Assembly: GCA_904374385.1 (NCBI GenBank)
Contig: CAJFGA010000017.1
Location: 1 to 33,026, forward strand
Reading direction: 5' to 3'
DNA length: 33,026 nt
Source of the DNA: an uncultured Clostridia bacterium
GTDB lineage: Bacteria; Bacillota; Clostridia; Christensenellales; Borkfalkiaceae
The notes under the pieces are model-generated. The model was not told the origin of the DNA. It saw only the letters and a list, made by a program, of their open reading frames with translations, and did not search any database. Shown piece after piece: positions 2,940 to 10,242 of the stretch (position 1 is its first letter; the number at the start of each line of letters is the position of its first letter). A program made the translations under genes and the position numbers.

Positions 2940-4705
2940 TCAAGAGCGGAACTGCGAACGCTGCAATGCCGCATATTCCCCGTTCAACGCCATCAACTCT
3001 TCGTGCGTGCCCCGTTCGGCAATCTGCCCGCCGCGCAGCAGGATGATCTCATCCGCATTTTTGACGGTGGAAAGGCGATGCGCCACGACGATGGTCGTCC
3101 TGCCTGCGGAAAGCTCTGCAAGGGACGCCTGGATCTGCATTTCCGTAAAATTGTCGAGAGCGCTCGTCGCTTCGTCGAGGATAAGCACGGGCGGATTTTT
3201 CAGAAACGCGCGCGCGATGGAGACGCGCTGCTTCTGCCCGCCCGACAGCTTGACGCCCCGCTCGCCCACCTCGGTATCGTAACAGTTCGGCAGCGTCTGC
3301 ACAAACTCATGGATATTGGCGCGGCGCGCCGCTTCATAGATCTGTTCGTCGCTCGCCTCGAGATTGCCGTAGGCAATATTTTCCTTGATCGTGCCGCCGT
3401 ATAAAAAAAATCCTGCGCGACGATGCCGATGCTCTTGCGAAGGGTTCGGCGCGTCACGCGGTCGATCTCGATGCCGCCGATCGAAATCGTGCCGCTGTCC
3501 GGCTCGTAAAAGCGCGGGATCAGGTGACACACCGTCGTTTTGCCTCCTCCCGAAGGGCCTACGAGCGCGACGGTCGTACCCTCTTTGACGGTAAAGCTGA
3601 GATGGGAGAGGACGGCATTTTCGCCCGTCTCTTTATTTTTATACGAAAAACTCACGTCGCGGAATACGATGTCGCCGCGCAAAAGGTCTACGTTTACGGG
3701 ATCGTCCGGCTCGCTCTCTTCTGGAACGGCGAGCACTTCCCGAAAGCGCGCAAAGCCCGCAAGGCCGTCCTGGATCTGTTCGAAGAGATTGACGAGCGTT
3801 CGGATGGGCGTCAACAGCATCGTGACATATAGGATAAACGCCGTATAGTCGCCGGGGCTGATGCGGCCGAAATAGAAAAACAACCCGCCCGCAACGAGCG
3901 CAATGAGGTACAAGAGGTCGTTGAACAGCCCCATTCCGCCCTGAAAGATCCCCATATAGCGGTATGCTTCCGAACGCGCCTTCTTAAATTCGCCGTTGGA
4001 ACGGTCGAATTTTTCCTCTTCCTTTTCTTCCGCGGTATATGCCTTGGAAACGCGGATCCCCGAAACGGAGGACTCGATGCTCGCATTTACTTCGGCGATC
4101 TTTTCGCGGGAGGCGCGGAATGCTTCGTTCATCCGGCCGCGCATCTTGACGGCGAAGAGCACCATGCAGGGCACGAACAGGATGACGATGAGGGAAAGCC
4201 ACGGATCGATAAAAAAGAGAAGAATGACCGCCCCGATAATACTGATAACCGACATAAAGGTATCTTCCGGGCCGTGGTGAGCGAGTTCGCTCGTTTCGAA
4301 CAAGTCATTGACGATGCGCGACATGATGGTGCCCGTCTTCGTTTCGTCAAAATAAGGAAAGGGCAGCCGCTCCACATGGCTGAAAAATTTGCGGCGCATG
4401 TCCGCTTGGATCCTGACGCCGAGCACATGCCCCCAAAAGCCGACGATATAGGTGAGGAACGCCTTTAGAACATAGATTGCCAAAAGCGCCGCCGCCCATA
4501 TGACGATGAGGGCGACCGCCCTGTTCGGCACGAAATCGTTCATGATCATGCGCGCGATAAACGGATAGAACAGGTTGCACACGGCGATTGTAAAAGAGCA
4601 GACCAAATCGAGTGCGAATAATTTTCTGTGCGGTTTATAATAGGAGAAAAAAGCGCGGATCGCTCCCCTTTCTCCTTTCTTCTTTGTTTTCATGTGATCG
4701 CGCAT
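2940..4705 (-). pseudogene. Half-size ABC exporter (multidrug/lipid type), one-base frameshift
   Basis: This is a type IV ABC exporter: an N-terminal six-helix membrane domain fused to a nucleotide-binding domain, acting as a dimer to export drugs, lipids or peptides. The first frame (4705 to about 3411) carries the membrane helices and Walker [10 protein letters not shown] and runs into the Q-loop IVAQDFF. The second frame resumes at [13 protein letters not shown] and holds the signature LSGGQKQR, Walker [13 protein letters not shown] and the H-loop VVAHRLSTV, ending at 2940. The break is the A8 run at 3403-3410; nine bases would restore a 588-residue protein of normal family length. The domain is otherwise intact, so this could be a sequencing error, a recent mutation, or slippage on the tract. 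The start at 4705 is chosen because GGAGG lies 8 bases upstream; an earlier ATG (4729) sits almost on the predicted transcription start. The substrate cannot be inferred. Confidence 0.85.
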
Positions 4706-4738
4706 GTCTTCAGCCTCCGGTTTTGTCATCTGTCTATT

Positions 4739-4974: not shown

Positions 4975-5175
4975 TCAAATCTTTCTGCCGACCAGTTCAT
5001 CCAAACTGATCCCGTAATAGTCCGCGATCTTCACACACATTTCGATGCTCGGCAGGATCTTGCCGCTCTCCCACCTGTACACATTTTGATGATTAATGCC
5101 GAGGGCGTGCGCAAGTTCGTGCGGATTCAACCCTCTTTCCTCCCTGTTTTGTCTGAGCGATTCCGCGATATCCAT
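4975..5175 (-). CDS. Small XRE-family helix-turn-helix regulator
   Basis: This 66-residue protein consists almost entirely of one Cro/C1-type HTH domain: SLRQNREERGLNPHELAHAL forms helices 1-2, INHQNVYRWESGK contains the recognition helix, and PSIEMCVKIADYYGISLDEL closes the fold. It should bind DNA as a dimer; target and ligand are unknown. The ATG at 5175 is chosen because the upstream in-frame residues (back to 5265) do not look like protein. No Shine-Dalgarno precedes it. A TGCAATAAT sequence that could act as an extended -10 lies so close that the transcript might be leaderless. Two copies of ATGCAAT, 19 bases apart, lie just upstream and could be an autoregulatory operator. It sits between the hydrogenase operon and the ABC gene, each side bounded by a terminator. 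Confidence 0.85.
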   Translation of the reverse strand: MDIAESLRQNREERGLNPHELAHALGINHQNVYRWESGKILPSIEMCVKIADYYGISLDELVGRKI

Positions 5176-5263
5176 GGAATTATTATTGCATAAAAATGAT
5201 AAAATTGCATGAATTTCACATATTTGTGCAAACAAAATTTTACATCTTTTCCCCCTTTTCGCC

Positions 5264-5308
5264 AAAAAAAATCAATCGTGAAAACCCTTCGAGATCTTCA
5301 CGATTGAT
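5264..5308 (-). terminator. Intrinsic terminator of the hydrogenase operon
   Basis: A perfect 12-bp inverted repeat (arms ATCAATCGTGAA at 5271-5282 and its complement at 5297-5308) has a 14-base loop. Read on the minus strand it is followed by T8 (5271-5264). It starts 18 bases after the stop codon of the last hydrogenase gene. Confidence 0.88.
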
Positions 5309-5326
5309 CGTCTAAATCATATCCGG

Positions 5327-6781
5327 TTATTCTGCGCCCGTATCGCCGATGCTGAGTTTGTACAGTTTGACCGAATTGTCGATCGTCTTTTCTTTGGCAG
5401 AGGCGCCGTACTTATCCACGTCTACGACGTTCTTCGGCCCGTGGTTGAGGCAGAGCGCCCCGTTCAGGCATCCGCCGTCGCACGCCATCCCCTCGAAAAA
5501 GTTTTCCGTCGCACGATTGAGTTTGAGCTTCATCAAGGCGGCGCGGCATTCGTCGATCCCGTTCATCGCGAGCGGTTTGATGCCCTCGATGCCGTATTCC
5601 GCCGCCACATCCGAAATCCCCTGCGCTATGCCGCCGCTCTTGGCAAAGATCCTGCCGTAAAAGGAGGCATTATCGAGCGAGGTCTCTTCCAAAGATCCGA
5701 CATCGATGTGGCGCGCGTCGAGAAATGCCTGCAATTCTTCAAAGGAGAGAACGCTGTCGATCGCGCCCTGCGTTTTGGGCAGCTTATATTCGAGCTTTTT
5801 GCTTGCGCAGGGACCGATGAAGATAACTTTGCCGGCGGGATCGGTCCGCTTGATGAGCATCGCCGCCTCTACCATGGGCGACACGGAGTGTGAGATATAT
5901 TTTGCCAAATCCGGAAAATTCTTTTCCACAAACATCACGAAAGAGGGGCAGCAGGAAGTCGTCAAAACTCCTTTTTCCTCCCATTCTTCCGCCTCGTGAT
6001 AGAGGGTAATGTCTGCGCCGAGCGCCGCTTCGACCACTTGGTGGAAGCCGAGTTTGCGGATACCCGTTACGACCTGTTCGATCTTCGCATACTTAAACTG
6101 GCTGACAATGGAGGGCGCGATGACGGCGTAAACATGATACTTTTTCCCTTCTTCCGATTTTTTAAGGATATCTATGCTCTCCATGATCATCGATTTGTCG
6201 ACGATCGCGCCGAACGGGCACTGGTACACGCAGGCCCCGCAGGAAATGCATTTATCGTTATCGATAACCGCCTTTTTATCTTCCCCTACCGTGATCGCCT
6301 TCACCTTGCAGGAAGATACGCAGGGGCGCTTTTGATGGATGATCGCGCCGTAAGGGCATGCCTGCGTGCATTTGCCGCACTCGATGCACTTGGATTTATC
6401 CACGACCGCTTTGTGGTCGATGATCTGGATCGCGTCGCGCGGGCAGACCTCCTGGCAGCGATGCACGATGCAGCCGCGGCAGGCGGGCGTCACAAAAATA
6501 CCTCCGATGGGACATTCGTCGCAGGCAATATCGATGACTTCGACGACGTTGGGATTCTTTTTGTTTCCGCCGAGCGCGAGTTTGATGCGTTCCTGTACGA
6601 TGGCGCGCTCTTTGAAAATACAGCAGCGCATCGTCGCTTTGGGCCCCGGAGAAATCTCTTTGGGAATATCTATATAGATATTGTCGTAACAATGCTCGTA
6701 TTCGTTGCGAATGATCGCTTTCAACACGTCGTATTTGAGTTTTTGTACCGCTGTGTCAAAAATTCGTTTGTTATCTGCCAT
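5327..6781 (-). CDS. hydA2: Monomeric [FeFe] hydrogenase, group B type
   Basis: This 484-residue cytoplasmic iron-sulfur protein is likely to form or oxidise H2 with ferredoxin. The N-terminal half is cysteine-rich: CDEC (87-90), CRGC plus C109 and C113, then ferredoxin motifs at 132-142 (CIECGKCTQACP) and 178-188 (CISCGACVYQCP). The H-cluster domain follows with L1 TTSCCPSF (Cys277, Cys278), L2 FIGPCASKK (Cys325) and L3 GMACDGGC (Cys434, Cys438). All four H-cluster ligands and the proton-transfer cysteine are therefore present. The L2 form GPCASKK, rather than the bifurcating-type MPCxxKxxE, points to group B. A GAGAGGG ribosome-binding site precedes the ATG. The gene is last in the operon, 81 bp after the phosphatase gene; that gap contains a possible internal promoter. 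Activity in vivo is inferred; group B enzymes are poorly characterised. Confidence 0.92.
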   Translation of the reverse strand: MADNKRIFDTAVQKLKYDVLKAIIRNEYEHCYDNIYIDIPKEISPGPKATMRCCIFKERAIVQERIKLALGGNKKNPNVVEVIDIACDECPIGGIFVTPACRGCIVHRCQEVCPRDAIQIIDHKAVVDKSKCIECGKCTQACPYGAIIHQKRPCVSSCKVKAITVGEDKKAVIDNDKCISCGACVYQCPFGAIVDKSMIMESIDILKKSEEGKKYHVYAVIAPSIVSQFKYAKIEQVVTGIRKLGFHQVVEAALGADITLYHEAEEWEEKGVLTTSCCPSFVMFVEKNFPDLAKYISHSVSPMVEAAMLIKRTDPAGKVIFIGPCASKKLEYKLPKTQGAIDSVLSFEELQAFLDARHIDVGSLEETSLDNASFYGRIFAKSGGIAQGISDVAAEYGIEGIKPLAMNGIDECRAALMKLKLNRATENFFEGMACDGGCLNGALCLNHGPKNVVDVDKYGASAKEKTIDNSVKLYKLSIGDTGAE

Positions 6782-6801
6782 ATGACCCTCTCTAACCTAC
6801 T

Positions 6802-6816
6802 GATGATTTATATCAT
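6802..6816 (-). promoter_or_regulatory. Possible internal promoter/operator half-site before the group B hydrogenase
   Basis: The minus strand reads TGATATAAA (6815-6807), an extended -10 with no clear -35. It sits inside the imperfect palindrome ATGAT-N4-ATCAT. The plus-strand nine bases GATTTATAT (6805-6813) are identical to one arm of the palindrome over the operon's main promoter (10110-10131). A shared regulator is inferred from this. Confidence 0.4.
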
Positions 6817-6862
6817 TTCCCCTAAATTTGCTGCACTGTGCCACGCCTGAACCGCCATATTT

Positions 6863-8023
6863 TTAATCGTAATCGATCGCAACTTCCTTGCCCATCGCCT
6901 TCAAGTTTGCGGCGAGGCTTTCGACCAGTTTCAGCTTCATCGTGATGTCGATGGGAAGCCCCGTATGCGCCGCGTTGATGCTCTGCCCCACGAAAAAGTG
7001 AACGCTCGTCGCCTCTTCGAAGAGCATTTGCGCCAAGAGAGACGCGCCGTCCTTTTTAGTGAATGTTTTGGGCGTTAAATCGTGTACGTCTACATATTTT
7101 TCAGACAATTCCAAAAGTTTCCGCATGGTCAGGACGCCCTCCGTCGTGAGATCGATGCCGTCGATAAAACCGATGGGAGGGACGTCTTTATCGGGAAAGT
7201 CGAAAGACGCACGCACGCTGGTTTTCAAATGCCGCGCGACGATCTGCGAACTCGTGCCGCCGCAGACCACCTTTTTCCCCGCGCCCGCCAAAAAACGGGA
7301 AATGTAAAAATCATCCTTTGACTTATCGACGGGCGGGCCGATCATAAGGTTTACGTTCAGCTCTTCGCGCACCTTGACGGCGGCGACCGTCGTATCGTCG
7401 CCCGGGGTGCCGAGATACAGATCGTTGCACACGCCCGCCAAAAGGCAGGCGACCGCGCGTGCGCTCATCGTCGGCTTCACGTTATTGTCTAAAAACTCCA
7501 TGACCTCCGGCCGCTGCCAGCCGAGATTGAGCGTCATGCCGATCCCCGCATGAATGACGCCGTCGCTCATGACGACGATCACGTCGCCTTCCTTCAAGTC
7601 GAGCGCGGTCTTATACACCGTTTTGCCGAGGATGTCCATCCCTTCGCGGGGAAAATCACGGCACTTGCAGTCGCGGATCAAAATTGCCTGCGGATTGTCA
7701 AATTCGAAGAGATAACCCTTCCCCTCCCGATTCATGTGAATGACCGAAAAGGTGGAATAGGCGACCCCGCGCACCTTGCACACGGGCAAAGACTGGATGA
7801 TCGTTTCGACGCATTCTTCGATGTCGATTTCGTTGGAAACCATCGTACAGAGGATCTTTGAGGTGAGGGTCGACAAAATATTCGCTTTAACGCCGCTCCC
7901 CAGCCCATCCGCCAAAACGAGGGTGGTATAATCGCCCGAAACAATGCTCTCCACGCGGTCGCCGCACAGCTCTTCGTTCTTTTTGTTGAGCGATGTATAG
8001 CCGCTTTCCAGACAGAGAGCCAT
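6863..8023 (-). CDS. SpoIIE-type PP2C protein phosphatase linked to the sensory hydrogenase
   Basis: This 386-residue protein has a metal-dependent Ser/Thr phosphatase (PPM/SpoIIE) domain in about residues 1-220. The acidic metal-binding motifs are LADGLGSG (Asp39), VMSDGVIHAG (Asp154) and PGDDTTVA (Asp209-Asp210). The last 165 residues (from about NLMIGPPVDKSKDD) form an extra region that I do not recognise; it contains GGTSSQIVARHL and a late helical stretch. The start codon overlaps the hydS stop as TAATG, with GAGGAGGAG 8-9 bases upstream, so the two products are probably made in fixed ratio. PP2C genes beside PAS-containing hydrogenases are a known marker of the C3-type sensory hydrogenase. 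The likely role is to relay the HydS signal by dephosphorylating an unknown protein. No membrane segment is seen. Confidence 0.88.
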   Translation of the reverse strand: MALCLESGYTSLNKKNEELCGDRVESIVSGDYTTLVLADGLGSGVKANILSTLTSKILCTMVSNEIDIEECVETIIQSLPVCKVRGVAYSTFSVIHMNREGKGYLFEFDNPQAILIRDCKCRDFPREGMDILGKTVYKTALDLKEGDVIVVMSDGVIHAGIGMTLNLGWQRPEVMEFLDNNVKPTMSARAVACLLAGVCNDLYLGTPGDDTTVAAVKVREELNVNLMIGPPVDKSKDDFYISRFLAGAGKKVVCGGTSSQIVARHLKTSVRASFDFPDKDVPPIGFIDGIDLTTEGVLTMRKLLELSEKYVDVHDLTPKTFTKKDGASLLAQMLFEEATSVHFFVGQSINAAHTGLPIDITMKLKLVESLAANLKAMGKEVAIDYD

Positions 8024-9726
8024 TATTTTTTCTCCTCCTCTCCCTGCAAAGTCTTTTTGAGCTTGAGGAGAGCCACTTTTGTTTCTGCCGTCGTTTCACC
8101 CAATAGGGAGGCGATCTCCTGCGCGACGCGCATCTGCTTTTTGATGACCTCGTCGGTGGTGGCGAGCGTTTCGAGTTTGACCTTGTCCAGCTGCTCTTCG
8201 CTCTTGGTCTCCTGCGTGATGTCCTTCATCACGGCATATGTCCCCTTATTGTCTTTGAGAACGATGATGGTCAGCTCGATATAGCTGCCCGTCTTTTCGA
8301 GATAAACCTTTTTATTGTAAATATTCTTATTGTCGTTCTGTGCGAGCACGAATTCGGTGGGGTTGAAATAGTGGAAGATGCCCTTGCCCTTCACGTCATA
8401 CTCTTTGATCCCCAAAAGTTCTTTCGCCTTGCCGTTGATCTCCATGATGTTGAGATCGTTGTCCAACAGCACGATGCCGTTGGGGCTGGTTTGGATGATT
8501 TCGTACGACATGCTCTCCGCGCGGGCGCGCATATACGGCACGCACATGTCGATATTTGCATAGCCGTTCGCCACGGCCCAAGCCTTTTCATAACAGGTAT
8601 TATAACCGCAGGCACCGCAGTTGAGCATATCTTCCGGCTTCGTTTTGCCCGTTTTGGCGAGGATCTCGGCGATCTGCCGGTCGGTAGGAACAAAATCCTC
8701 CGTGCGCTTGCGCTCGTGCACGCAGGAAAAGTCGATGTCCTTTTCCTCTTCGTAAGGGGCGGAACTATGCTCGGCGAGGTCGCGGCTGACATACTTGCGG
8801 ATATCCGCGTTGGCCTTTAGAGCCCCCGCCTTGAGCGCGAGCGAACACGGCCCGTTGACGCAGGCGGAATCACAGCTGTTCATTTCGATAAACATGCCGG
8901 ATATACTCTCGATGTTTTCGAGCACCTCTTTGCACTTTTCCGCACCGTCTACGGCAACAAACTCATAGCCGTCGATATAATTTTCAAACGATTTGATGAT
9001 GCCGCGGCTGATGGGATAATACTTCGCACGGTTGACGCCGCCCGTCGCCTTGGACGGAAGGCGCGCAATCTCCGACAAAACGATACCCTTGTCTTCAAAC
9101 ATCGCCGCGAGATCTTCAAAGGTGAGAACGCCGTCGACGACCCCGCTCTCGTGCGCTTCCCTCTTTTTGGCGATACACGGGCCGATAAACACGACCTTTG
9201 CATCGGGATGCCTTTTGCGGATCATCTTGGCATGCGCGATCATCGGCGTATCTACGGGCGCCAAGTAAGCGAGCGCCTTGGGATAATACAGTTCGATGAG
9301 CGTATTGACCGCCGGGCAGCAGGAGGTGATAAAATTTTTATAGGTGTGCGCTTCGAGCAGTTTTTTGTACTGCGCGGTGACTTCGCGCGCGCCGATGCTC
9401 GTCTCCTCCGCATCGGCAAAGCCCAGCCTGCCGAGTGCGAGCTTCATCACATTGAAATCCTGCAGATCGAAGCTGGATACGAAAGAGGGCGCGACGGACG
9501 CGATGACATTGCCGCCCGCCAGCAACTTTTCCACCTCACCCCGCTCGGTATGCACGCTTTTGGCATTTTGCGGGCAGACTTCGGTACAATGACCGCAGAG
9601 GATGCAGCGGCTGTCGATGATCTTGGCATGATGATCGACCACCTTGATCGCCTTGACGGGGCACTCTCTGAGGCACTTATAACAGTCTTTACAGCGGGCG
9701 TCTTTGAAATCGAGATAATTGATCAT
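8023..9726 (-). CDS. hydS: Putative sensory [FeFe] hydrogenase with FeS and PAS domains (HydS, group C type)
   Basis: This 567-residue protein has two ferredoxin-type 4Fe-4S motifs (Cys12/15/18/22 and Cys41/44/47/51). The H-cluster domain has L1 TSCCPAV (Cys136, Cys137), L2 FIGPCIAKK (Cys184) and L3 NSCDSACVNG (Cys285, Cys289). A four-cysteine FeS domain (CGACGYNTC plus Cys395, about 370-395) follows, then a PAS domain (about 405-505) and a charged, probably coiled-coil tail. A PAS domain on a hydrogenase core marks the sensory group C, thought to sense H2 or redox state rather than make H2. L3 departs from the catalytic consensus ACxGGCxxGGG. The gene starts 15 bases after the 2Fe-2S gene, and its stop codon overlaps the phosphatase start. 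Its output is presumably the downstream phosphatase, since no kinase is adjacent. Confidence 0.93.
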   Translation of the reverse strand: MINYLDFKDARCKDCYKCLRECPVKAIKVVDHHAKIIDSRCILCGHCTEVCPQNAKSVHTERGEVEKLLAGGNVIASVAPSFVSSFDLQDFNVMKLALGRLGFADAEETSIGAREVTAQYKKLLEAHTYKNFITSCCPAVNTLIELYYPKALAYLAPVDTPMIAHAKMIRKRHPDAKVVFIGPCIAKKREAHESGVVDGVLTFEDLAAMFEDKGIVLSEIARLPSKATGGVNRAKYYPISRGIIKSFENYIDGYEFVAVDGAEKCKEVLENIESISGMFIEMNSCDSACVNGPCSLALKAGALKANADIRKYVSRDLAEHSSAPYEEEKDIDFSCVHERKRTEDFVPTDRQIAEILAKTGKTKPEDMLNCGACGYNTCYEKAWAVANGYANIDMCVPYMRARAESMSYEIIQTSPNGIVLLDNDLNIMEINGKAKELLGIKEYDVKGKGIFHYFNPTEFVLAQNDNKNIYNKKVYLEKTGSYIELTIIVLKDNKGTYAVMKDITQETKSEEQLDKVKLETLATTDEVIKKQMRVAQEIASLLGETTAETKVALLKLKKTLQGEEEKK

Positions 9727-9741
9727 AACGGCGCCCCCGCT

Positions 9742-9990
9742 TTACTTGCCGACGCGCGGATAGATCTGCGTGAGGAACAGTTCTTCGCAGTTATCTTTGT
9801 TGGCATTGTGTACGAGGATTTCATCCGCGAGCATGCTGACGCCGTTTTGGCAGTTTCCCATGCAGAAGCTCGCCTGCAGATCCACTTTATCCTCTACCCC
9901 GTACTTTTTGATGAGGCGCTTCATTTCCTCAATCACGTCGTAAGATCCCCGAAGATGACAGGAGCTTCCGACACAAACTTTGACGACCAT
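9742..9990 (-). CDS. NuoE-like thioredoxin-fold [2Fe-2S] ferredoxin
   Basis: This 82-residue protein resembles the C-terminal domain of NuoE/HydC. The four cluster ligands are visible as CVGSSC near the N-terminus and FCMGNC near residue 50, followed by the family-like NGVSM stretch. The ATG at 9990 is preceded by GAGAGG with 8-base spacing; upstream in-frame residues are not protein-like. It is the first gene of the hydrogenase-phosphatase operon, directly behind the operator-bearing promoter. It probably passes electrons to or from HydS or the group B hydrogenase. No flavin- or NAD-binding NuoF partner is present here, so it may be a stand-alone electron carrier. Confidence 0.88.
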   Translation of the reverse strand: MVVKVCVGSSCHLRGSYDVIEEMKRLIKKYGVEDKVDLQASFCMGNCQNGVSMLADEILVHNANKDNCEELFLTQIYPRVGK

Positions 9991-10091
9991 AACAATAACC
10001 TCTCGATAAAATTTATATATGCGCGCGCTTTTCTTCTCTTGCACAGACATGCGAAAAGACGCGCTTTCCGATTCCCTCTTGCGCGAATGTG

Positions 10092-10131
10092 AATCGATAT
10101 TTTTTTATCGATTTATATTATAATATAAATC
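10092..10131. repeat. Two overlapping perfect inverted repeats (candidate operator)
   Basis: The first repeat, 10110-10131, is a perfect 22-bp palindrome with half-site GATTTATATTA. It covers the -10 box and the predicted transcription start. The second, 10092-10113, has arms AATCGATA and TATCGATT separated by T6, and shares four bases with the first. AT-rich symmetry over a promoter start suggests binding of a dimeric repressor. It does not match the Rex consensus (TTGTTAA-N4-TTAACAA) usual for clostridial hydrogenases. Confidence 0.75.
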
Positions 10132-10145
10132 ACCGAGATAGTCAA
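10117..10145 (-). promoter_or_regulatory. Main promoter of the 2Fe-2S/hydS/PP2C/hydA2 operon
   Basis: On the minus strand, -35 TTGACT (10145-10140), a 17-bp spacer and -10 TATAAT (10122-10117) make a near-perfect promoter. Transcription would start near 10110, leaving a leader of about 120 bases. Such a strong core overlapped by a palindrome suggests expression is limited by repression. Confidence 0.88.
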
Positions 10146-10184: not shown

Positions 10185-10218
10185 CAAAAAATACACGGGC
10201 ATACAACGCATGCCCGTG
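10185..10218 (-). terminator. Intrinsic terminator of the cation ATPase gene
   Basis: A perfect 9-bp stem CACGGGCAT/ATGCCCGTG (10194-10202 and 10210-10218) with a 7-base loop is followed on the minus strand by TATTTTTTG. It lies 25 bases after the ATPase stop codon and insulates the hydrogenase promoter. Confidence 0.9.
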
Positions 10219-10242
10219 CTAAAAAGTATGATTTGAAAAGCT

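Follow-up and report, generated by a model that had tools for sequence, protein, structure and literature searches.

The window analysed here is a stretch of 33,026 nucleotides (nt), contig C17 in the draft assembly (1.96 Mb, 101 contigs, 89.6% complete) of a fermenting, gut-type bacterium. Open reading frame (ORF) and domain scans place in it a unit of four genes, all on the minus strand, which encode in order a NuoE-like protein, a sensory-type [FeFe] hydrogenase (HydS), a SpoIIE-type phosphatase and a group B [FeFe] hydrogenase (Table 1). A preliminary description of this DNA had grouped the four genes in one unit; each is found where that description put it, and the Pfam and NCBIfam scans agree with the names it gave. 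HydS runs into the phosphatase gene, as it also stated, in the motif TAATG (8025-8021), where stop and start have base 8023 in common. The unit is real, conserved and of a known kind.

Table 1. Features of the four-gene unit and its flanks (positions in the window).
Feature	Position	Strand	Size, type or basis
NuoE-like single-domain thioredoxin-like [2Fe-2S] protein	9742..9990	-	82 aa
HydS	8023..9726	-	567 aa, sensory-type [FeFe] hydrogenase bearing PAS
HydS residues 530-557, near-invariant helix end, putative output element contacting the phosphatase	8056..8139	-	conservation
SpoIIE/PPM-type Ser/Thr phosphatase	6863..8023	-	386 aa, unnamed C-terminal alpha/beta domain
Phosphatase residues 34-61, metal-binding DG and alpha-1 switch region	7841..7924	-	conservation
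Phosphatase residues 221-386, unnamed C-terminal alpha/beta domain (C-domain)	6866..7363	-	model and family scans
Group B [FeFe] hydrogenase	5327..6781	-	484 aa, TIGR04105
Sigma-70-like promoter, TTGACT-17-TATAAT	10117..10145	-	11/12 consensus matches
Operator AATCGATA-N6-TATCGATT, proposed Rex-type site	10092..10113	.	perfect inverted repeat, 0 mismatches
Terminator-like 18-pair stem and T run, unit end	5270..5309	-	consensus scan
Terminator-like stem behind upstream P-type ATPase gene, marking unit start	10193..10219	-	consensus scan

The NuoE-like protein matches PF01257 at 35.9 bits (cut-off 24.8), scored on a longer reading of 102 aa from 10050; by eye, a GAGAGG-like ribosome site precedes the start at 9990 and none precedes that at 10050. 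Its nearest PDB sequence is 7p5h, the C-terminal part of an Fe-hydrogenase alpha subunit. The last gene of the unit falls in group B, with 536.3 bits against TIGR04105 (FeFe_hydrog_B1, cut-off 450) in the NCBIfam scan. The promoter and terminators are to be taken as consensus matches only, because shuffled sequences give similar numbers (6 promoters found and 4.5 expected; 7 terminators found and 7.0 expected).

HydS and the phosphatase are a near-obligate pair, and the exceptions are mostly contig ends. In an order-level sample of 297 genomes the phosphatase was matched in 95, and 98 loci were laid out, the window included; a second set of 80 loci, taken from named records, overlaps the first in part and includes Bacteroidales-labelled records and one Treponema record. 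HydS lies immediately upstream of the phosphatase at 95 of the 98 loci and 79 of the 80. Two of the three departures in the first set are contig ends (L132, L134) and the third is a stand-alone copy of the phosphatase C-domain (L133); the single exception in the second, L215, begins at a contig end. By these two counts the arrangement is far beyond chance, and the gene order is conserved across the order, as the preliminary description required. Searched from the other side, the 57-residue HydS C-terminus was matched in 93 of the 297 genomes, all of them among the 95 with the phosphatase; the two phosphatase genomes left over have a contig end (G062) or the C-domain only (G249). A phylum-level sample of 398 genomes gave the same picture. 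Its best 142 rows for the HydS C-terminus, down to an expectation value (E) of 5.9e-32, were used and the weaker ones, 8 of them listed, left out, and the phosphatase comes next at 140 of these 142 places, with a median gap of 23 nt between aligned ends. One exception among these best 142 lies at a contig break (G545), and at the other (G655) the genes form a tandem HydS-HydS-phosphatase row. Four of 148 phosphatase rows have no upstream HydS row, namely contig ends in G545, G684 and G689 and a lone gene in G301. The gap between the two genes is between -8 and +2 nt at 58 of 95 loci, ORF starts being uncorrected. At locus L228 (2288-7255), tandem HydS genes stand before one phosphatase, and the conserved helix described below is present at the end of both.

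Around this pair the neighbourhood is looser. Among the 98 loci, NuoE immediately precedes HydS in 86, and downstream of the phosphatase there is a relative of the window group B protein (>250 bits) in 76 and some hydrogenase in 90. Upstream and in the same direction, at least one of Rex, AdhE and an APH-type kinase is present in 53 and all three in 27. Many relatives carry a single operon, Rex-AdhE-APH-NuoE-HydS-phosphatase-hydrogenase, which is split in the window genome. A YfcE-like phosphoesterase (about 180 aa, by eye) stands between phosphatase and hydrogenase at 14 of the 98 loci, for example L059 (5966-6505) and L079 (7658-8236). HydS-phosphatase loci also occur in records of other phyla (L144, L148, L155 and L158 with Bacteroidales labels, L166 with a Treponema label), with phosphatases 68-75% identical to that of the window; this looks like transfer between phyla, unless the records are misbinned.

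HydS consists of two N-terminal [4Fe-4S] ferredoxin motifs, an H-domain, a Cx2Cx4Cx16C cluster, a PAS domain and a long C-terminal helix, with Pfam scores of 154 bits for Fe_hyd_lg_C, 39.2 for the FeS family PF04060 and 30.3 for PAS PF00989 (cut-off 22.6). For the alignments, 59 phosphatase and 55 HydS rows were drawn from the 80 named-record loci. The H-cluster cysteines C137, C184, C285 and C289 are kept in all 56 HydS sequences, and the Cx2Cx4Cx16C cysteines C370, C373, C378 and C395 are invariant among them. The position of Met353 is Gly in 56/56, and that of Met497 is N, S or H, never Met. Replacement of these two methionines is described as a trait of sensory enzymes of low activity (PMC10055695, PMC8163306). 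By its domain layout, the kept cysteines and the two replacements HydS looks like group C (M2f), and the preliminary view of the PAS protein as sensory agrees with each group C sequence mark tested. These marks and the pairing in 95 of 98 loci also support its proposal that a sensory hydrogenase feeds the phosphatase. It is highly improbable that the PAS protein is a catalytic hydrogenase in an ordinary redox role with an incidental phosphatase neighbour. The window protein does keep the H-cluster cysteines and the proton-relay cysteine at the position of C299 in CpI, but the methionine replacements are those of the low-activity enzymes and the pairing with the phosphatase is near-absolute.

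The C299 position itself is Cys in 26 of the 56 sequences, that of the window included, Ala in 28 and Ser in 2; Cys at this site is given for 17% of sensory enzymes (PMC10055695). Because it is Cys in the window protein, this sensory-type HydS may retain a more usual proton relay. The PAS domain is shared with TmHydS, and the H-cluster surroundings and C-terminal Cx2Cx4Cx16C are as in the sensory hydrogenases studied biochemically. Passages from three biochemical papers on these enzymes name no output protein, and in the main text of all three the word "phosphatase" has 0 occurrences.

The conservation peak in HydS is the last helix, not the H-cluster. Residues 530-557 form the best-conserved 28-residue window (mean majority frequency 0.916, 14/28 columns invariant). 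In the same 56 sequences the whole protein reaches 0.578; the best windows with H-cluster ligands score 0.782 and 0.734, that of the FeS cluster 0.805 and the PAS domain 0.479. The HydS segment QEIASLLGE is invariant. An AlphaFold2 model of HydS, with a mean predicted local distance difference test score (pLDDT) of 86.7 and a predicted template modelling score of 0.72, ends in a 63-residue helix (504-566), in which block-mean pLDDT is 52-67 from residue 521 onward. Because confidence is low near the end of so long a helix, the model suggests that residues 530-557 are held by nothing within the HydS monomer. Conserved positions are spread around the helix without preference for one side (moment 0.05).

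The helix also appears to mark off those HydS proteins that go with a phosphatase. With HydS residues 1-405 as query, and among the matches listed, E falls from 5.5e-75 to about 3e-43 after the HydS genes, bar two split rows; the matches listed below that point are group B-like and other proteins, some of 423-571 aa that match at 30-34% over residues 8-404. Among the matches listed, the 8 weaker rows of the phylum sample do not reach the helix and belong to ORFs of 732-901 aa; four were read and two of these scanned. In HydS homologues with another output, similarity to the query stops at the PAS region, and 2/2 of those scanned carry a sigma-54 activator domain in place of the helix. These two, at L220 (1766-4366) and L223 (2256-4541), are HydS-like hydrogenases joined in one protein with the sigma-54 activator domain and a helix-turn-helix; by eye their neighbours are NuoE/NuoF-like, and L222 and L231 resemble them. 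Such fusions are possibly one-protein, H2-responsive transcription activators.

The phosphatase belongs to the SpoIIE/PPM family by profile, metal ligands and fold. It scores 51.2 bits against SpoIIE PF07228 (cut-off 25), the metal-binding residues D39, D154, D209 and D210 are present in 60/60 sequences, and the modelled fold matches 3pu9, 5mqh and 5ucg, with a template modelling score of 0.78 for 3pu9 by target length. A whole-chain Foldseek search likewise returned PP2C proteins among the matches listed. Its best-conserved window is residues 34-61 (0.914 in 60 sequences), where the model places a helix at 44-63. In genome G301, a single case, the lone phosphatase is missing 10 residues of the alpha-1 region and the genome has no HydS match. 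One other SpoIIE-domain protein was found in the host assembly; it is SpoIIE-like, has 767 aa and scores 303.6 bits (cut-off 490.8).

The C-domain of the window protein matches no Pfam or NCBIfam model above cut-off, and assignment to a known domain was dropped, scans of 16 members having yielded no consistent family. The C-domain is conserved to 0.634, against 0.642 for the whole phosphatase, and its model alternates strands and helices, mostly at high confidence, with weaker blocks near 271-280 and 351-360. In a profile search of the PDB the best matches were 3trj, a phosphoheptose isomerase (E 0.0027, 59 positions), and 1w61 (E 0.15), too weak to name it. Its GGT(T/S)S and GID..EG segments may resemble DeoR/ISOCOT-type sugar sensors. 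At L133 (6462-8181) a 150-aa gene product consists of the C-domain and lacks the PP2C part; by eye its gene is flanked by an Ldh-like and a LysR-like one, and a NuoE-like gene is near. A ligand-binding role for this domain is a guess.

The kind of system is already known, as HydDB group C3 and as hfsBCD of Thermoanaerobacterium; the preliminary description likewise gave a HydS-PP2C link as known. Group C3 is given in HydDB as a "phosphatase-linked (putative)" [FeFe] hydrogenase and putative H2 sensor (PMC5037454). Both it and the window unit tie such a sensor to a Ser/Thr phosphatase; the HydDB passage lists the link only, whereas the present analysis adds the pairing counts, the helix, the operator and the C-domain. 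In Thermoanaerobacterium saccharolyticum, hfsABCD is described as one operon with a predicted Rex site, in which HfsB is a PAS-hydrogenase, HfsC a serine phosphatase and HfsD a hydrogenase (PMC5707799, PMC5886521). The window unit matches the order HfsB-HfsC-HfsD, a likeness of gene order and description rather than of Hfs sequences. The window unit lacks a counterpart of HfsA, and HfsD is said to resemble HydA2, whereas the window hydrogenase is of group B. The hydS/adhE cluster of Ruminococcus albus, described as H2-dependent, brings together a sensory hydrogenase and a phosphatase, as the window unit does, along with AdhE and a hydrogenase (PMC6776011); there the hydrogenase is of group A1, and in the window it is of group B, with AdhE, Rex and APH on another contig.

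A works-like relation is proposed with the PPM phosphatases of the RsbP/RsbU type, for which a sensor domain, a helical linker and an alpha-1/alpha-2 switch are described (PMC12143880, PMC8080068, PMC11418112). RsbP is one polypeptide acting on a STAS substrate, whereas the window has two genes and an extra C-terminal domain; no ORF in the first 98 loci was matched by both HydS and phosphatase, and the unit is not itself an RsbP. Because the gene boundary falls where linker meets phosphatase in RsbP, the unit reads as the PAS-linker-PPM design of RsbP, apparently spread over two overlapping genes with the break just ahead of the phosphatase domain. The near-absolute pairing and the two matched conserved segments, HydS 530-557 and phosphatase 34-61, name a likely contact point.

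The operator, ATCGATA-N6-TATCGAT, lies in the window immediately downstream of the -10 hexamer. Taken alone it is only mildly unusual, since at up to 3 mismatches 0.2 sites are expected in the window and 19/100 shuffles hold one or more. In the host genome, three sites occur at up to 1 mismatch: before the HydS operon, upstream of the Rex-AdhE-APH operon on contig C9 (1 mismatch), and at C10:41368, which was set aside as it lies inside a predicted ORF. A reversed-pattern control gave 0 sites in the window genome and 1 in the other ten genomes. The simplest history would be that an operon which remains intact in relatives was divided in the host genome, with the same switch retained on each part.

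Operators were counted at those loci whose upstream sequence reaches 300 nt or more, 150 in all: 80 of the 98 and 70 of the 80 in the two partly overlapping sets. The operator at up to 1 mismatch stands 10-450 nt before the first gene in 37 of them, in 14 as copies 14 bp apart. The full 2.42 Mb of loci hold 65 such sites, and 49 of these are in the upstream zones (66 kb) of the 150 loci; the figure rises to 53/65 if short-upstream loci are added and is 45/57 when counted as distinct sequence contexts. As expected of a Rex regulon, the site goes with the rex gene: it is present in 15/22 Rex-first operons and 6/58 others in the first set, and in 11/17 and 5/53 in the second, uncorrected for kinship. 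Compared by eye with the published clostridial Rex consensus TTGTTAANNNNTTAACAA (PMC8457756), it has the same dyad spacing, and T.G.TA is common to each arm. Predicted Rex sites are described before hfsABCD and adhE in T. saccharolyticum (PMC5886521). A literature search on the operator letters, which gave a very broad hit set, contained no relevant paper among the matches listed. On this evidence the operator is probably bound by a Rex-type repressor.

HydS very probably switches the phosphatase on or off. The fuller mechanism that we favour, with moderate confidence, is an H2- or redox-responsive, two-protein Ser/Thr phosphatase with electron partners, in which helix 530-557 sets the phosphatase in trans and the output, together with Rex, favours the ethanol branch. 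HydS would be altered by H2 or by its H-cluster redox state, and the change would travel through its C-terminal part and the PAS domain into the long helix. The near-invariant end of this helix would pack in trans against the phosphatase at its alpha-1/alpha-2 switch and set its activity, and the phosphatase would dephosphorylate a substrate such that the ethanol branch is favoured. The HydS and Rex-AdhE-APH operons have one operator in common, to which the Rex-type repressor would bind; as redox partners with tuned output, the NuoE-like protein and the group B hydrogenase would complete the scheme. The sequence itself shows the gene content, the pairing, the conservation and the common operator, whereas helix-switch contact, Rex binding, the sign of the signal and the substrate are inferred.

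The direction of the signal is suggested by work on other species. Deletion of hfsB in T. saccharolyticum is reported to raise the adhE transcript, NADH-linked alcohol dehydrogenase activity and ethanol; deletion of hfsC or hfsD did not raise adhE, and a high ethanol yield needed wild-type hfsC and hfsD (PMC5707799). In R. albus, co-culture with an H2 user left the cluster containing hydS 111-fold lower; that study suggests that H2 is sensed by way of the sensory hydrogenase and a phosphatase (PMC6776011). From the deletion and co-culture results together, HydS would restrain the phosphatase at low H2, and high H2 would lift the restraint and let the phosphatase favour AdhE, a sign carried across species. 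The preliminary description suggested a signal, relayed by dephosphorylation, that controls a partner hydrogenase. This looks too narrow, given Rex, AdhE or APH upstream and in the same direction at 53 of 98 loci, the host Rex-AdhE-APH genes behind the same operator, and hfs genetics that point to AdhE (PMC5707799).

Several observations weigh against the proposed mechanism. One is the low model confidence at the HydS helix end, and this conserved helix could instead serve HydS dimerisation. In that case the helix would only dimerise HydS, the phosphatase would be regulated otherwise, for example by a metabolite on its own C-domain, and the operon would be kept for a shared pathway. A C-domain as conserved as the whole phosphatase and mostly well folded in its model, its weak profile match to the sugar-phosphate isomerase 3trj, and its single stand-alone occurrence beside Ldh-like and NuoE-like genes (L133) would all suit this alternative. 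We think it unlikely nonetheless, as the best 142 helix-bearing HydS places all adjoin or line up with a phosphatase, bar one contig break, both scanned homologues with another output lack the helix, and conservation without a favoured face goes beyond what a simple coiled coil of two strands should need. The likely arrangement is that sensor and phosphatase touch through the helix.

The search for a substrate of the usual class raises a second difficulty. The only STAS protein found in the assembly (at 89.6% completeness) is SpoIIAA-like, below the SpoIIAA equivalog cut-off, and sits on another contig beside a sporulation-type sigma factor; none is in the unit. A canonical STAS partner switch was set aside, the assembly offering no candidate beyond this protein. 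A possible opposing kinase is encoded on contig C1 of the host genome (L036, 16761-20000), where a PAS-less group D-like hydrogenase adjoins an RsbW-like ATPase (HATPase_c_2, 35.6 bits, cut-off 27.4). The further neighbours of this hydrogenase look, by eye, PHP-like and DRTGG-like. The cluster is a possible second sensor system. That its ATPase opposes the phosphatase by partner switching is decidedly improbable, no STAS protein being near either locus.

The APH-type kinase is another potential antagonist, acting oppositely to the phosphatase on the same substrate. It is upstream of the phosphatase and in the same direction at 42 of 98 loci and lies behind the same operator in the host genome; both genes occur in 60/297 genomes, with an association odds ratio of 6.5, uncorrected for kinship. 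Against such opposition, and as further points against the favoured mechanism, a search at E 1e-20 misses APH in 35 of the 95 genomes that carry the phosphatase, and another 42, including 18 from the window's family, carry APH but no phosphatase. APH may instead follow AdhE. Because of the 35 genomes lacking it, APH was rejected as an obligatory antagonist, and the opposing role itself has in our view a low probability.

The remaining difficulties concern the operator. At up to 1 mismatch it is found in only 37 of the 150 loci, and its letters differ from the published consensus TTGTTAANNNNTTAACAA (PMC8457756). In genome G193, which belongs to the family but lacks the phosphatase, a perfect operator precedes unrelated genes (L256, near 3324); G109 carries a 1-mismatch copy before a membrane-protein gene; and in G296, of the same genus as the host, the operator stands just before Rex-AdhE-APH, while the version ahead of NuoE has 3 mismatches. 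Matches outside the HydS and Rex operons were inspected in G193, G296 (C40), G007, G109 and G162, three extra ones in G137 being left out: two of the five are in clear ORFs, one is before unrelated genes, one before a membrane-protein gene and one is ambiguous.

A more extended form of the mechanism can be offered tentatively, and we lean slightly against it as a whole. Here the near-invariant HydS helix would act in trans as the switch lever of a split, H2-gated, linker-controlled PPM phosphatase, which would take a second, metabolite signal through its C-domain, a Rex variant would read ATCGATA-N6-TATCGAT, and the two promoters would form an H2/ethanol regulon.

Two features next to the unit may be recorded. 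On the minus strand, the end of an ABC transporter ORF (window 3200-4729 and 2940-3530) looks frame-shifted, with the other frame open beyond; the break is a frameshift or an assembly error. A small HTH_3 protein is encoded at 4975-5265, minus strand, directly after the terminator-like stem of the operon, and its match to the RstR family is below cut-off.

The biochemistry of sensory [FeFe] hydrogenases has been published, in the sources available here, without a demonstrated output. What the present analysis adds is the pairing count, the two matched conserved segments, the unnamed C-domain and the operator common to two promoters. With the pairing and the two segments, the question of what HydS talks to becomes one for binding and mutagenesis experiments. 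Although the sensor and AdhE genes lie apart in this genome, the common operator connects them, which matters for the output of H2 and ethanol, and hence of methane, by gut and industrial anaerobes.

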